Shown: positions 20,140-42,109 of the stretch, piece after piece
How the letters are laid out: the number at the start of each line of letters is the position of its first letter
Position numbering within the stretch: position 1 is the first letter of the stretch
Assembly: GCA_022402525.1 (NCBI GenBank)
Contig: JAKRSB010000103.1
Coordinates: forward strand, 62,001 to 126,000
DNA: 64,000 bases
From: Thermosynechococcaceae cyanobacterium MS004
GTDB taxonomy: Bacteria > Cyanobacteriota > Cyanobacteriia > Thermosynechococcales > Thermosynechococcaceae
Direction: 5' to 3'
Position numbers and translations under genes: made by a program
Notes under the pieces: generated by a model
What the model was told of the DNA's origin: nothing
Database searches by the model: none
The model's input: the letters and a program-made list of their open reading frames with translations, nothing else

Positions 20140-20907
20140 TCATAGCGGTGCTGTGGGCGATCGCGCCAAGTCAAACAAAAAGCCGTGGATGTACTCTTCC
20201 GTCCACTCAGATCCATAAAACCGAGTAAACATTCCCCTTGCCGGATCTTTCTCAGCGCGGTAGCCCACATAGCGCATCTGTGCTGCTTTAATCTCCGCCA
20301 AGGTTTCAGGGTCGGTCACCGGAACCGCCTGATCCACAAAGTCTAGGTAAAGCTTAAGATACGCTTTGAACGCCTCAAACACCTGAGTTTCAACCACATC
20401 CGTTTGGGTTGGCCTTGTCCACAAAAAGGCGGGAGAGAAAAAAGCGCTGGCCTCTTCTGGAAAATCGCCCCCCCAAGGCAGATGCTGTCGATAGAATTCA
20501 AAAATAGGCAGCACGGGCTGGGTGTATCTGGCCTGGTAGTCTGGGTCGTCGCGGAAGAGGGGCTGCATGTCCAAGGCAATGAGATGCCCCCCTGGCAGGG
20601 TGACGAGATCGGCCCCAAAAAAGGGCAAGTCATAGTTGAGATGGGGGAAGATGACAAAATTCAGCACCTGAAGGGTGTTTCCCCCCTGCACATGCGACGC
20701 TCGAATTTGTCGAAGCTTAGAACTTTGATATCCGTAACTGGTGGTCAGAACTTCATCTTCGCGCTTGCCTTTGCCCACCCTCGCCGACTTAGACTCAAAC
20801 CCTTCTGGAATGGGGTAGGGCTGCAGATCCAGACGAGCCTGAATCTGGGCGATCGCATGATCTAAAAAGGGCTGATAAAGGGTTTGGGATGTCGTTCCAA
20901 TAGACAT
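20140..20907 (-). CDS. pebB: Phycoerythrobilin:ferredoxin oxidoreductase
   Basis: PebB reduces 15,16-dihydrobiliverdin to phycoerythrobilin with electrons from ferredoxin, the second step after PebA. The ~255-residue protein has the ferredoxin-dependent bilin reductase fold, with [38 protein letters not shown] and [24 protein letters not shown] blocks. I use the ATG at 20907, 9 nt past the pebA stop. An in-frame TTG at 20919 would overlap the pebA stop by 3 nt and is also possible. pebA and pebB form one transcription unit. Confidence 0.95.
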
Positions 20908-20915
20908 TTCAACTC

Positions 20916-21650
20916 TCAACCACTCTGAACCGCAAGGGCAACGGACTTAGCATCCTCAAACAAAAACTCGTACAGAAAGCGCTCCGCCCAAGGATGACCA
21001 AAATAGCTGCTGAATAACCCCGAAGCTGGATCTCGATCTGCGCTGTACTGGTCGTAGTCTTTCTGTGCTTTGACAATTCGCTGAATATCCGACGGATCGT
21101 TCAGAGGTTCCGCTGCGGCTAATATCTCCCAGTAAAGATTGAGGTAATCTTTGAATGCTTCAAAAGCGCGGGTCTTAACGGTTTCAGAATCGGTCTTTGC
21201 AAACAGTAGATATTTAGAAAAATACTGATTCGCATCGTAAAACTTCATTTCCAGATCTTGAGTCAAATCGGGATAGCTGTCGTGGAGTCTCTTAAGGGGA
21301 TGAATATAGCGCTCTAGATAGGCTTCATCCTGAAACAACGGCTGAAAGTCCATCACAATTAGATTCTTGACTTGCCCAAAGGAAAGAAAGTCGATCCCAA
21401 GAAGGGGCAATTCGTACTGGTAATTTGGGTAAATAACGCAGTTAAAAATCTGGGCGCTAACCCCAGCATCAATGTAGGTGTAGCGAATTTTACGAAACTC
21501 AGGACATTGGTAACACCAGCTTTGAATCGTAGCAGGATGCTTACCCCGTTCGCTAACTTGAGACTCTAGCCCAGCCGGAATCGGACGGCTTTGTAAATCA
21601 AACCGATCCAGCAGCGATCTCTCTAGGTATTCTTGAAAAACTTTATACAT
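20916..21650 (-). CDS. pebA: 15,16-dihydrobiliverdin:ferredoxin oxidoreductase
   Basis: PebA reduces biliverdin IXalpha at the C15-C16 bridge and hands 15,16-dihydrobiliverdin to PebB. The 244-residue protein shares the family blocks ([68 protein letters not shown]) and is distinguished from PebB by its N-terminus and length. The start is ATG. It is the first gene of the pebAB pair, with cpeS-like gene 21879-22466 upstream on the same strand after 228 bp. Confidence 0.95.
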
Positions 21651-34707: not shown

Positions 34708-35334
34708 ATGTCTGCCGAAGACCTCTTTCAACAGCTTAGACACCCTAATCCTCACCTGCGCGATCGAGCGATGTGGGCGATCTCCGAACAGCGGGATGAA
34801 ACCACCCTTCCGCGCCTCATGGCGCTGCTGAGCGAGGAAGATACCAACTGCCGCCGCGCTGCGGTTAAAGCCCTTGGCCTGATTGGTGCTGATGCAGTAC
34901 CACCCCTGGTTGCCGCCTTGCAGCAGGAGAATAGCGTGACCGTTCGGGGCAGTGCTGTCAAAGCGATCGCCCAAGTTGTGATTAACTATCCTGACGTTCC
35001 CCTCTCGACTGAAGGCGTGGCAGCACTCAAGCAGGCGCTCCTCGACCCGAACCCCGTTGTGAATATTGCCGCAGTCATGGCGTTGGGTGAGATGGGAAGC
35101 CCCGCTGTGGATATTTTGATCGACACCCTACAGGCCACTGATAATCCAGCGCTCGGCGTTTCCCTGGTGAATGCCCTCGGCTCCATTGGCGATCACCGTG
35201 GAATTGTAGTCCTCAATACCCTCATTCAAGACGAATCCACTGATTCCTACGTACGGGAGTCTGCGCTGAGTGCACTTTCGCGTCTAGAGATGACCGCAAC
35301 GTTCAGGACGAATCCGGCAGGGGAAGTGCCGTAA
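34708..35334 (+). CDS. cpeZ: CpeZ, HEAT-repeat lyase subunit/chaperone
   Basis: CpeZ stabilises CpeB and helps CpeY. The 208-residue protein starts MSAEDLFQQLRHPNPHLRDRAMW, the family's characteristic opening. It contains five HEAT repeats (CRRAAVKALGLIGADAVPPLV, TVRGSAVKAIAQV, VVNIAAVMALGEMGSPAVDIL and others). ATG 34708 is preferred to an in-frame start 33 nt upstream that has no family support. It is the last recognised gene of the phycoerythrin cluster. Confidence 0.93.
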   Translation: MSAEDLFQQLRHPNPHLRDRAMWAISEQRDETTLPRLMALLSEEDTNCRRAAVKALGLIGADAVPPLVAALQQENSVTVRGSAVKAIAQVVINYPDVPLSTEGVAALKQALLDPNPVVNIAAVMALGEMGSPAVDILIDTLQATDNPALGVSLVNALGSIGDHRGIVVLNTLIQDESTDSYVRESALSALSRLEMTATFRTNPAGEVP

Positions 35335-35413: not shown

Positions 35414-35674
35414 TTGTTCGTTGAAGGTTTGTGTACACTGGGGGTATTTGCCCTGGAGACATCTGCCCTGGAGACAGTAATATTGCTGACGACCGTTTGG
35501 CGATTTGCTATGTTTGTGGGTACTAGGATGACTATACAGGCGACATTCCGATGACATTCCTCCGATGACATTTCATTGACGCTATTGCAGAGCAGGAACC
35601 TCTCCACTTTCACTTCGCCTACTCTATCTCGACGCACGACCAGCCATTACCATGAGGTTCCCAGCGACTCACCC

Positions 35675-36559
35675 ATGAAAACTAGCACGCCTCCCATCCA
35701 GTGGTATCCCGGCCACATTGCCAAAGCGGAAAAAGCGCTGATTACACAGCTCAAGCGGGTGGATGTGGTGCTTGAAGTGCGGGATGCCCGCATTCCGCTG
35801 GCCAGTGCTCACCCCCAGGCATCTGCTTGGGTGGGTGAGAAGCCTAGAATCTTAATCCTAAACCGAATGGATTTGGTAAGCGCCAAGGCTATTGAAATCT
35901 GGCAGTGCTGGTTTGCAGCCCAAGGCGAAGTCCCTTACTTCACCGATGCCCAGCATGGAAAAGGGATTTCGGCGATCGCCAAGGCGGCTCAGGCGACCGG
36001 ACAAGCCCTCAATCAGCGCCGCCGCGATCGCGGCATGAATCCCCGTGCGGTACGGGCGGTGGTCATTGGCTTCCCCAACGTGGGCAAGTCAGCCCTCATC
36101 AATCGGCTGCTTAATCGCCGGGTGGTGGAGAGTGCCAGAAAACCAGGCGTCACCCGTCAGCTCCGCTGGGTGAGAATTTCACCGGACTTAGATTTGCTTG
36201 ATGCGCCGGGGGTCTTGCCTCCCCTCCTCAAAGATCAAGACGCTGCCTATCGCCTTGCCATGTGCGACGACATTGGTGAAGGTGCTTACGATCGCCAGCT
36301 AGTGGCTTCTGCCCTGATTCAGCGCATTCAGGAGATGGAAAAATACTGCGAAACTTTAGGAGCCTGGATGCCCCAGAACTCGCTCCAAAGCCGCTACGGC
36401 CTTGACCTAGGCGATCGCATGGCGGATGAATACCTTGCCGCACTGGCCGAGGTCAAGTTTAAGGGTGATGTAGACCGAATGGCGCACCATGTCCTCAACG
36501 ATTTTCGGAAAGGCATATTAGGGGCAATTCCCCTAGAGGTTCCGCCCGTCCTCGCCTAG
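35675..36559 (+). CDS. rbgA: Ribosome biogenesis GTPase RbgA (YlqF)
   Basis: RbgA helps late assembly of the 50S subunit. It is a circularly permuted GTPase: G4 (LNRMD) comes before G1 (GFPNVGKSALINRL) and G3 (DAPG). The N-terminal IQWYPGHIAKAEKAL is the family signature. The start at ATG 35675 (294 aa) is chosen because conservation begins there; the open frame extends 99 nt upstream without ribosome site. It converges with the GAF gene, with 31 bp between the stops. Confidence 0.93.
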   Translation: MKTSTPPIQWYPGHIAKAEKALITQLKRVDVVLEVRDARIPLASAHPQASAWVGEKPRILILNRMDLVSAKAIEIWQCWFAAQGEVPYFTDAQHGKGISAIAKAAQATGQALNQRRRDRGMNPRAVRAVVIGFPNVGKSALINRLLNRRVVESARKPGVTRQLRWVRISPDLDLLDAPGVLPPLLKDQDAAYRLAMCDDIGEGAYDRQLVASALIQRIQEMEKYCETLGAWMPQNSLQSRYGLDLGDRMADEYLAALAEVKFKGDVDRMAHHVLNDFRKGILGAIPLEVPPVLA

Positions 36560-36590: not shown

Positions 36591-37130
36591 CTAGCCCTCG
36601 CTAATGCAGGAGGTTGAAGCCAAAAGCTCTGCGCCTGAGCGCACCTGCTCAATTTCTGCGGTAGACCAGGCGTGGGACGTTTGACAATAGTGAGCCACCA
36701 ATAACCCCCATAGGCCCTTCGGCACCAGAATGGGCACGGCTAAATTGGCCTTGACCTGCATTGTGCGCAAGAAATCACGGTGGCACTCATGAATTGCTTC
36801 CTGCTCAATATTGGCGATCGCTCGATATCGACCTGCCTCATACAGCGCCGCATATTCGGCGTTAAAACAGTCGTCTGCCCCCGTAGACCCTAAAATCGAA
36901 AGCTCATCCGCACTCAGTGCCTCGCACACCACCTGCCCCTTCCACTGGCGGTAAAAGTAGTAGAGCACCACCCGATCCGCCTGAAGGCTTTGGCGGAGCT
37001 GAACCGTAATGCGCTGAACAAGATCATCTCGCTCTAGAGTGCTGGCAATCCGGCTGAGCACCCTTTGAAGCCACTGCTGCTCACTCAGAGAAGATGGGCG
37101 ATTAAGATCTAAGTCGGTTTGATTTTCCAC
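36591..37130 (-). CDS. GAF-only cyanobacteriochrome-like photoreceptor (DXCF type)
   Basis: The 179-residue protein is a single GAF domain (about 30-172) with no output domain. It carries the first cysteine of DXCF-class cyanobacteriochromes in D86-D87-C88-F89 and the canonical bilin Cys-His pair at C116-H117, followed by VKANLAVPI and LWGLLVAHYC, the CBCR signature blocks. DXCF CBCRs bind phycocyanobilin or phycoviolobilin and usually switch between a blue/violet and a green, teal or orange state. The start is GTG; the frame is closed 30 nt further upstream. The gene lies next to the phycoerythrin cluster. Function in light-colour regulation is inference. It could also be a bilin-free GAF protein, but the twin motifs argue against that. 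Confidence 0.78.
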   Translation of the reverse strand: MENQTDLDLNRPSSLSEQQWLQRVLSRIASTLERDDLVQRITVQLRQSLQADRVVLYYFYRQWKGQVVCEALSADELSILGSTGADDCFNAEYAALYEAGRYRAIANIEQEAIHECHRDFLRTMQVKANLAVPILVPKGLWGLLVAHYCQTSHAWSTAEIEQVRSGAELLASTSCISEG

Positions 37131-37777
37131 AAGATCTTCGGTATCAGGACAAGATTGGTATCAGAACAAGATTGATATCATGATAAGGCTGACGAGCCCA
37201 ATCATAAAACCGGGTGGCCTTTGCCTCTCTAGGATATTCCGTCCGCACCGCTGAAAACCCGGCACTTAAAGACAATTATCTGGAAAACACTATCTGGAAA
37301 CCATCATCTGGAATACAACGTTATCTTCAGCATCAAAAGCAATACCGCTTCCGACTAAACCTTCAGACTAAACACAGCCACAAGTCTAGTCTAACGAACA
37401 TCCTTCGTTGTATAGGCCACTGACCAAAGGTTTACCGCTCAGAATCGCTTAGAACCTGGTGAAATTGTTTGGTGAGATTCTTTAGCCTCTCCGTGACAGG
37501 CCATTCGTCTTCTTGCCGAACTACCATGGAAAGTAGAAATAACAAGGAATAGCCCGAACAATAGGGTGCCTGCCTAGATCCTAATCCTCAACAACAGAAG
37601 CACAGGCTCTGCATTGCGCTAAAATTATTAAGGATTATTTAGACATTGAGTGTCCCCCCTGCGGCCTTAATGTTGAGTCTCTCAACAGCCGATTCTCTCA
37701 ATATCAGAACCCTGAAGCCACGACCTGCCTCAGCGCACCCTGACGCTTAACTTACGGATTGATTTGGAACAATTTTT
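37131..37777. other. Spacer between the GAF gene and typA
   Basis: This 647-bp divergent spacer contains short imperfect duplications (ggtatcaga/acaagattg near 37140-37170; tatctggaaa repeats near 37277-37315). Open frames here are short and unconvincing. Both promoters must lie here. Confidence 0.45.
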
Positions 37778-39645: not shown

Positions 39646-40563
39646 CTACAGCCTAAGCTGGGTATAAACTTGACTCGCGGCACGGTGTAGTAAGGAATGC
39701 CGATACACAAGGCTTTCCCGATCCTTGCTGTAGCCACCCCCAATCACGCAGGCTACTGGGCATCCCTGACTCACACAGGTACTCAGTACCTGCATTTCAC
39801 GACGAAAGAGTCCTGTATTGCTGAGGGCTAACTTTCCTAACACATCGTCTTGATGGGGGTCAACGCCAGCATCGTACAGTACAAGGTCGGGTCGAACCTG
39901 CGTCAGCAAGTCCGGCAAATACTGCGCCAGGGTTCTGAGGTAGGCTTCATCTTCCATTCCCTCCGGTAAGGAAACATCCAAATCGCTGCGCTGCTTTTTT
40001 CCAGGGAAGTTACTCTCACAGTGCATTGAAAAGGTAAAGATGCTGGGGTCATCCTGAAAGATATAGGCAGTCCCATCCCCTTGGTGTACGTCTAAATCGA
40101 CAATCAAAACGGTTCTCGCTAACCCTTGAGACTGGAGCACCCGCGCCGCGATCGCCAAGTCGTTAAAAATACAAAATCCTGACCCGTAGCTTGGAAAAGC
40201 ATGGTGGGTGCCTCCGGCGGTGTTACAGGCCATTCCATGCTTCAGGGCAAGCTGCGCCGTCAGTACAGAGCCGGCTACGGCAATACAGGTGCGGTGCGCG
40301 AGGGCGGCACTCCAGGGCAGGCCAATGCGCCGTTGAGCCTTGGCATCTAAAGTACCCTGACAATAGGCCTCAATATAGTCTACGTCGTGAACCAACGCCA
40401 GCCACTCAAGAGACGGCAGTTCAGGCTGATGAAACTGATCGGGGGTTGCCACACCGTCATTGAGGAGCTGCGCGTACAGCTCACTAAATTTCTCCATCGG
40501 AAACCGGTGGCCATCAGGAAGCGGCGCAACATAGTCGCGGTGATAAACAATGGGAAAACTCAT
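39646..40563 (-). CDS. Histone deacetylase/acetoin-utilisation family deacetylase
   Basis: The protein has the arginase/deacetylase metal site: DLDVHQGDGT (Asp and His ligands) and YDAGVDPHQDD (second Asp). It also has AGGTHHAFPSYGSGFCIFNDLA with the two catalytic His and closing VIGGGYSKD. Bacterial members deacetylate small molecules or lysines; the substrate here is not known. I use ATG 40563 (305 aa) where conservation begins (MSFPIVYHRDY). The FHA-kinase gene ends 55 bp upstream on the same strand. Confidence 0.92.
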   Translation of the reverse strand: MSFPIVYHRDYVAPLPDGHRFPMEKFSELYAQLLNDGVATPDQFHQPELPSLEWLALVHDVDYIEAYCQGTLDAKAQRRIGLPWSAALAHRTCIAVAGSVLTAQLALKHGMACNTAGGTHHAFPSYGSGFCIFNDLAIAARVLQSQGLARTVLIVDLDVHQGDGTAYIFQDDPSIFTFSMHCESNFPGKKQRSDLDVSLPEGMEDEAYLRTLAQYLPDLLTQVRPDLVLYDAGVDPHQDDVLGKLALSNTGLFRREMQVLSTCVSQGCPVACVIGGGYSKDRESLVYRHSLLHRAASQVYTQLRL

Positions 40564-40618
40564 GTCAATCCGCGAATATCTCCGAAAATTGAACCCTGAG
40601 GCACCTAACGGCCAACCC

Positions 40619-42109
40619 CTACAGCAAAGCCTGGAGTCTATCAATCAGAGTCTTGGCTACACCGATGCGCTGTTCTGGGTCGGGGTGGGTGAGGGCATGG
40701 ATGATTTCAACCAAGGCCGGACTCAGGTTTGGCGCATCCTTAGCCTGGAGTCGAAATTCGCGATCGCCCAGCTGGTAGAACGCATCCGGCTCCTTACCTG
40801 TTAGCAAAAATAGCAAAGTCGCGCCTAAAGAGTAGAGATCAGAGCGTGTCGAAAACTCTCCCCGCGACTGCTCTGGAGAGAGGTATCCACTGGCACCCGT
40901 AAAGGTATTGACGCTAGAAATTTCCCCCTTTACCTTACCAAAGTTTACCAAGACCACCTGACTAGAACCATGGGCGATCGCAGGGCGAATGATATTGCTA
41001 GGAGAAATTGCGCCGTGGATATGAGATGGCGCTTGCTGTTGAAGGTAGTCTAGTAAGCGACTAAGCTCTAGCATCCACTGTATCGCCTGATATTGAGGAA
41101 GAGCACCTTGCCGCCCAACCAAGTCTTTAAGATTCGACCCATAAATCATTTCGCTAACCAAGTAGGGCTGCCCCTGCGCCTCAAAAGCTTCAAAGACCTT
41201 AGGCATACTAGGATGCTCTAACTGGCAAAGCTGGCGGGCCTGCTGCTCAAACCCATCTACCCACTTCTCACTTCTTAGCAATGCTGGTGATAGCGTTTTC
41301 AGAACAACCGTATGGCCCGCCCTCCAGGCCAATAGCGTATTGCCAGAGGAACTCAGCCGCCTCAGCCCCGTAAACGGCCCAACCTCCTGGATTGGATGAA
41401 TCGGGTAACCGCAGTCTGCACAAATTAAGGCACCTTCCGATGCGCCCTTATGATCGCAAGGCTGAGGCGGCAAGGCAGCAGCGCTCTCTGCCGTGAAGAT
41501 GGCGTAGCGACCACCCACATAAAAAGGAAGCGCAGCAATAGCGGGAACAAAATCTAGCTGAGATGACGTCAGGAAAGCCTCTGATAAGCCTGTCTTTGGT
41601 AAGCCTACCTTGGGTAAATCTCCTTGCTGGTTGACCGAACTCTCGCTATTCCCCTCAAGTTGGTCAAACTCTTCCGCAATCAATTTTGGGGTCGTGTTTG
41701 CAAGCACGTCTTTGGTCACGTCTTTGGTAGAGGTGTCTTGCGCGATTGATACTGCTTCTGTCCCTGGTTCAATCGAAGTTTTTTGAATCTCTGGCGCTTC
41801 TGAAGACTGAGCGTCAATGGTGACTTGAATGTTAGGGCCAGAACGCGCGAGTCGGATGATATTGCCTGTTTCTAGTGCAGCCTGCTGAACGCGCTTTCCA
41901 TCTAAATAGGTGCCGTTCGTGCCCAGATTAACAACTTCCCACTGGTTGTCGGTGAATCGAACCTCAACATGATATCGAGAAACCACGGCGCTATACAGCA
42001 CAACATGATTGTCTACCGCCCTCCCAATGCGAACCACAGGGTCATGATCAAAACTCCAGCTTTGCACTGGAGTGGACTGAACTGGATGCAGGAGCGTTAA
42101 GATAATCAC
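40619..42109 (-). CDS. FHA domain protein fused to a probable pseudokinase
   Basis: The 496-residue protein has an N-terminal FHA domain (about 25-95: RIGR at 27-30, SRYH at 44-47, NGTYLDG at 65-71), a low-complexity linker, a short zinc ribbon (C218; C230-x2-C233), and a Ser/Thr-kinase-like domain from about 245. The kinase Lys survives (K271). The HRD Asp, however, is replaced (H365-G366-A367), and the DFG motif reads N389-F390-G391. Catalysis is therefore unlikely; it may be a phospho-binding scaffold. The start is GTG. It forms a minus-strand group with the zinc-ribbon FHA gene upstream (213-bp gap). Confidence 0.85.
   Translation of the reverse strand: MIILTLLHPVQSTPVQSWSFDHDPVVRIGRAVDNHVVLYSAVVSRYHVEVRFTDNQWEVVNLGTNGTYLDGKRVQQAALETGNIIRLARSGPNIQVTIDAQSSEAPEIQKTSIEPGTEAVSIAQDTSTKDVTKDVLANTTPKLIAEEFDQLEGNSESSVNQQGDLPKVGLPKTGLSEAFLTSSQLDFVPAIAALPFYVGGRYAIFTAESAAALPPQPCDHKGASEGALICADCGYPIHPIQEVGPFTGLRRLSSSGNTLLAWRAGHTVVLKTLSPALLRSEKWVDGFEQQARQLCQLEHPSMPKVFEAFEAQGQPYLVSEMIYGSNLKDLVGRQGALPQYQAIQWMLELSRLLDYLQQQAPSHIHGAISPSNIIRPAIAHGSSQVVLVNFGKVKGEISSVNTFTGASGYLSPEQSRGEFSTRSDLYSLGATLLFLLTGKEPDAFYQLGDREFRLQAKDAPNLSPALVEIIHALTHPDPEQRIGVAKTLIDRLQALL

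Follow-up and report, generated by a model that had tools for sequence, protein, structure and literature searches.

The gene at positions 36591 to 37130 (minus strand, GTG start) of the window, a 64,000-nucleotide stretch of the genome of Thermosynechococcaceae cyanobacterium MS004, encodes a 179-residue protein that, judging from its sequence, is probably a soluble single-domain cyanobacteriochrome (CBCR) of the DXCF type, a putative blue-light switch that would act in trans by protein contact. A first-pass annotation had already proposed a stand-alone DXCF photoreceptor, and this is backed by an architecture that is fixed across a whole clade and by a predicted fold that matches those of CBCRs. 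The domain type is already known, as is the Nostoc orthologue as a listed cyanobacteriochrome; what is apparently undescribed is a widespread, monophyletic clade of output-less DXCF proteins, including one whose genome has no other cysteine-bearing CBCR that we could find. We found no account of such a natural clade in the literature covered, which takes in little of the subscription-only work on CBCRs, so that an earlier mention is possible.

An output-less GAF protein and its clade

The only domain above the Pfam cut-off is a GAF domain at residues 34 to 171 (E = 7e-18). The 33 residues before it and the 8 residues after it leave no room for a kinase, methyl-accepting chemotaxis (MCP) or GGDEF domain; ahead of the GTG the frame stays open for no more than 10 codons, and a stop follows residue 179. 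The chain therefore lacks the output module (histidine kinase, MCP or GGDEF/EAL) of a conventional CBCR, as the first-pass annotation had stated, and without a PAS or PHY domain it has neither the PAS-GAF-PHY nor the GAF-PHY module of a canonical phytochrome. What it does have are the marks of the DXCF subfamily: a CBCR-type GAF domain, the Cys-His pair C116-H117 with the canonical bilin-attachment cysteine in an ECH motif (ECHRD; C116 codon TGC at 36783 to 36785, minus strand), and a second cysteine, C88, in the motif D86-D-C88-F89-N (codon TGT at 36867 to 36869, minus strand). Both cysteines had been read correctly in the first pass, together with the blocks VKANLAVPI and LWGLLVAHYC. The best matches to PDB sequences were miRFP670nano (6e-25), the GAF domain of a dual-sensor kinase (3e-23) and TePixJ (1e-20), and by this measure the open reading frame is far from chance, the top matches all being cyanobacteriochromes or their derivatives.

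An AlphaFold2 model built on 43 orthologues reached a pLDDT of 84.6 and a pTM of 0.81. A structural comparison with TePixJ and similar DXCF GAF domains had been proposed with the original reading; the best Foldseek matches in the PDB were CBCR GAF domains (miRFP718nano and miRFP670nano, the dual-sensor kinase GAF, the blue form of TePixJ, 4glq, and RcaE), with E = 3e-12 and a TM score of 0.84 by target length against 4glq. The pLDDT falls to 62 to 66 at residues 61 to 90, the loop bearing C88, so that the C88-bilin geometry is uncertain.

The TePixJ GAF domain (DXCF, blue/green; PDB 3vv4, 4glq and 2m7u) resembles the window protein in the fold predicted for the latter and in its DXCF and CH cysteines, which are 28 residues apart in both according to the alignment with the PDB sequence match. 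It differs in that it sits in a methyl-accepting chemotaxis protein, is only ∼30% identical, and has none of the features YYFY, GSTGxD and DCFN that mark the stand-alone clade. Multi-domain DXCF GAF domains with a GxxGxDxCF motif (L021, L023, L024, L137 and L140 to L142) are among the most similar multi-domain ones (39 to 47% identity), but they lie in frames of ∼600 to 900 residues or more, keep an AIAIxQAEL-type linker, and fall on the other side of the branch described below. miRFP670nano folds and binds bilin as a single CBCR GAF domain (PMC6336887); unlike the window protein, however, it and similar tools are engineered excisions from larger receptors and not natural single-domain proteins. 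For NpF4973 of Nostoc punctiforme PCC 73102, a possible orthologue, absorption at 435/600 nm has been reported (PMC4469895).

A profile search that required neither cysteine, run on a sample of 386 cyanobacterial genomes, found stand-alone orthologues in 57 of them, spread over 31 genera and 14 families, with scores of 214 to 298 bits against 175 to 180 bits for the three nearest multi-domain matches. Among 58 genomes comprising the window's own and its relatives, 14 (own included) carried a clear orthologue; the others were 51 to 66% identical, and all were stand-alone, in frames of 183 to 212 codons. Beyond them, identity dropped to 48% or less and the matches lay in much longer frames. Across the family, members without an internal stop have frames of ∼165 to 270 codons, and in one Nostoc-type genus the protein was present in 46 of 53 genomes. 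A scan of GTDB contigs, for which one of the two search patterns requires C88, yielded 277 relatives, the best 80 of which were all stand-alone, one of them interrupted by a stop. In a maximum-likelihood tree, a single branch (100/100, present in 100% of bootstrap trees) separated 44 stand-alone rows from 31 multi-domain rows, the latter being those picked as next-best matches. This one branch suggests that, as far as sampling shows, the stand-alone form arose once and then stayed stand-alone. The family is thus widespread and long conserved, yet patchy in its presence. Stop-interrupted copies were seen at G104:C1:896622-897107, at G128:C1:1119299-1119787, in G466:C427 and at L109, suggesting that loss may be under way in some lineages, in which the protein would be dispensable.

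All 104 distinct family sequences have C116, H117, F89, H147, W63 and Y57, while 103 have C88 and 99 have D86. The first-pass annotation would have been undermined by relatives lacking the two cysteines and clustering with this protein; 103 of the 104 carry both, as do all 20 of the loci L117 to L136 drawn from the relatives and profile searches. The single exception, the stand-alone orthologue L104, has serine in place of C88 (DNSF) and is a naturally occurring variant with which to test the second cysteine. The family stands apart from multi-domain CBCRs at Y58, Y60, T68 (where the window copy has Val), S82-T83-G84, N90 and I176. In 89% of the family, position 176 is Ile; in 24 of the 31 multi-domain rows it is Gln and belongs to the linker AIAIQQAEL. 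That linker, leading towards the output, occupies the place taken here by a fixed tail at the C terminus (the final nine codons, ASTSCISEG; 36594 to 36620, minus strand). The AH motif is followed by 32 residues in 81 of 109 members, and by 29 to 37 across all of them. With a median dN/dS of 0.23 over 389 close pairs, the family is under purifying selection. The conserved clade, this selection and the fixed C terminus rule out a chance frame or a pseudogene of a larger receptor. Cargo of mobile elements was rejected as well: the GAF protein had no phage match, and plasmid GAF domains were only distantly related (<36% identity).

Phycoerythrin genes as neighbors

The window carries cpeS, cpeT, cpeB, cpeA, cpeY, a cpeZ-like HEAT gene, rbgA and typA, with a cpeR assigned by eye only. 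The cpeZ gene ends at 35334, rbgA spans 35576 to 36559, and the GAF gene ends at 36591, convergent with rbgA; typA lies on its other flank and is divergent. The statement in the first-pass annotation that the GAF gene adjoins cpeZ-rbgA is therefore literally right. Near typA, at 39646 to 40641 (minus strand), a protein of the histone deacetylase superfamily is encoded. Short direct repeats lie upstream of the GAF gene, at 37140 to 37173 and 37272 to 37317: a 17-nucleotide unit (GGTATCAGGACAAGATT) occurs twice, starting at a distance of ∼10 bases from the start codon; an 18-nucleotide unit is present in three copies with a 14-nucleotide spacing. They may be regulator sites or may have arisen by chance.

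From this arrangement the first-pass annotation had derived a possible action on CpeR. On such a reading the protein would be a dedicated phycoerythrin regulator, a light switch acting on CpeR or on the neighboring cpe lyases. cpeZ is indeed only 1.3 kb away, but rbgA stands between the two and the GAF gene converges on the cluster. None of cpeA, cpeB, cpeR, cpeT, cpeY, cpeZ, the linker gene or rbgA was found within up to 10 kb on each side of 100 other family loci. The only cpe-type matches there were two distant CpeS-like genes (L119 and L077; 41% and 28% identity), and typA was found near the GAF gene in one locus, that of a same-genus relative (L037), as the only shared neighbor. An operon with cpe genes was rejected on the synteny of these loci. 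They do not support a physical linkage either, and the GAF gene lies beside phycoerythrin genes in this genome only.

Co-occurrence was above expectation. CpeB was detected, at the threshold used, in 33 of the 386 genomes, and the odds ratio for sharing a genome with the GAF gene was 6.2 (Fisher p = 8e-6), or 3.4 (p = 0.03) when counted by genus; within the window's own family, cpeB was present in 4 of 4 GAF carriers against 2 of 25 noncarriers (p = 6e-4). None of these statistics is corrected for phylogeny. Moreover, phycoerythrin was found in 15 of the 57 carriers and missing from 42, and 18 of the 33 phycoerythrin genomes lacked the GAF gene. Neither the conserved linkage nor the strict co-occurrence expected of a cpe regulon member was therefore observed, the co-occurrence being weak. 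It says that the GAF gene and phycoerythrin tend to be found in the same kinds of cyanobacteria, which does not make the former a cpe gene, and we regard a dedicated role in phycoerythrin control as quite improbable.

The Nostocaceae orthologues, NDH-1 and FurA

A different gene order is common in Nostocaceae, running from ndhH through the GAF gene and, in some cases, a VOC gene to a MidA-like methyltransferase and a hydroxyisobutyrate dehydrogenase-like gene. On the same strand as the GAF gene, ndhH lies upstream in 34 loci and a Methyltransf_28 (MidA/NDUFAF7-like) gene downstream in 46; one or both flank it at L044, L056, L085 and other loci. Human NDUFAF7 methylates the homologue of NdhH, and these flanking genes may therefore form a functional cluster of their own. 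The ndhH gene of Nostoc sp. PCC 7120 is alr3355 (PMC8147232). Since the Nostocaceae members lie downstream of ndhH, Alr3356 of Nostoc/Anabaena sp. PCC 7120 is taken as an orthologue by gene position. The alr3356 gene, annotated as "similar to phytochrome," is a target of FurA, which represses it: its expression rose 3.9-fold on FurA depletion, and its gel shift was positive (PMC4788461). The same paper names Alr3356 a cyanobacteriochrome GAF photoreceptor, citing a study of seven blue-absorbing GAF domains (Ma et al. 2012, FEBS J 279:4095).

Upstream of seven Nostocaceae copies we observed FurA-like boxes matching at 16 to 17 of 19 positions, a level of 16 being reached by 0.6% of shuffled upstream sequences. 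Loci with such boxes include L045, L053 and L091, in keeping with what has been published on the control of alr3356 by FurA. The window GAF gene has no FurA-like box above chance upstream (best, 11 of 19). It differs from alr3356, the orthologue by position, in lying by rbgA, typA and the cpe genes, and it has no such box.

These data bear on two other readings. The protein might be a blue-light- and iron-linked switch on NDH-1, modulating respiratory or cyclic electron flow, as the flanking genes and the FurA control of alr3356 could suggest. However, neither ndhH nor the MidA-like gene lies beside the window gene or near any of the 20 loci L117 to L136 sampled from other families; within our sample the order is seen in Nostocaceae alone, where it may simply be inherited, and the gap between ndhH and the GAF gene is at least 243 bases and several kilobases in some genomes. 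We consider this role unlikely for the family. Alternatively, the protein might not sense light at all but have a redox, iron or bilin-buffering function, based on its two cysteines and on a bilin or heme that is bound only loosely. The FurA response of the Nostoc orthologue would fit this idea, and so would a nearly invariant third cysteine, C149 (102 of 104 family sequences). C149 is, however, common in multi-domain CBCRs too, the combination of D86, C88, C116 and H117 is the DXCF signature, the fold matches are photoreceptors, and the window gene is without the FurA-like box, all of which makes a purely redox or iron function rather doubtful. Outside Nostocales, no widely recurring neighbor of the GAF gene was found in the families sampled. 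Synteny does not support a dedicated operon partner, just as it does not support phycoerythrin-specific control.

A putative light switch acting in trans

The genome of MS004 (G000) has an estimated completeness of 100%, and no PHY domain was found in it. A CBCR profile picked out nine GAF stretches, and among the matches listed the Cys-His pair was present in the 36591 to 37130 protein only, and no second sensor of this type seems to be encoded in the genome. It has no close paralogue there. The next-best GAF domain, 30% identical, belongs to a CikA-type kinase (GAF-HisKA-HATPase-receiver, 768 residues; L158, contig C28) and lacks the canonical cysteine. A supply of bilin is to be expected, since Pfam identified three bilin reductases: two adjacent ferredoxin-dependent, pebA/pebB-like genes in the window (20170 to 21629, minus strand) and a third on contig C55.

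The invariant C116-H117 pair and the predicted fold suggest that phycocyanobilin would be attached to C116. Given C88 in its DXCF motif, the dark 15Z state would then carry a second thioether between C88 and C10 of the bilin and absorb violet to blue light; on illumination, the bilin would isomerize and the C88 bond break, giving a green-to-orange-absorbing photoproduct. Isomerization of phycocyanobilin to phycoviolobilin is typical of the DXCF subfamily, although not universal. Because the protein ends after the last GAF helices, with a conserved short tail in place of the linker helix that joins other CBCR GAF domains to kinases, it would presumably fall to another protein, acting in trans, to read the light-altered surface. 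An engineered binder provides a precedent for an isolated CBCR GAF domain that switches partner binding with light (PMC12856669).

The nature of the partner is a matter for more tentative suggestions. It is conceivable, though we would not rate it as likely, that the clade signals through light-switched contact with a partner that is itself no photoreceptor, the single domain being the sole bilin photoreceptor here. Candidate partners are NDH-1, on the strength of the Nostocaceae gene order, and the CikA-like kinase, whose own CBCR-type GAF domain lacks the bilin cysteine. A histidine kinase encoded elsewhere in the genome is a possible partner; since no other cysteine-bearing CBCR was found, such a kinase could not be one.

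This family provides a natural, widespread and small model for the way in which photoreceptors without an output domain signal. The MS004 genome would allow a clean test, as no second cysteine-bearing CBCR was found in it that could mask or carry the signal, and the family is a natural counterpart to the engineered CBCR-based pairs used for light-controlled binding.
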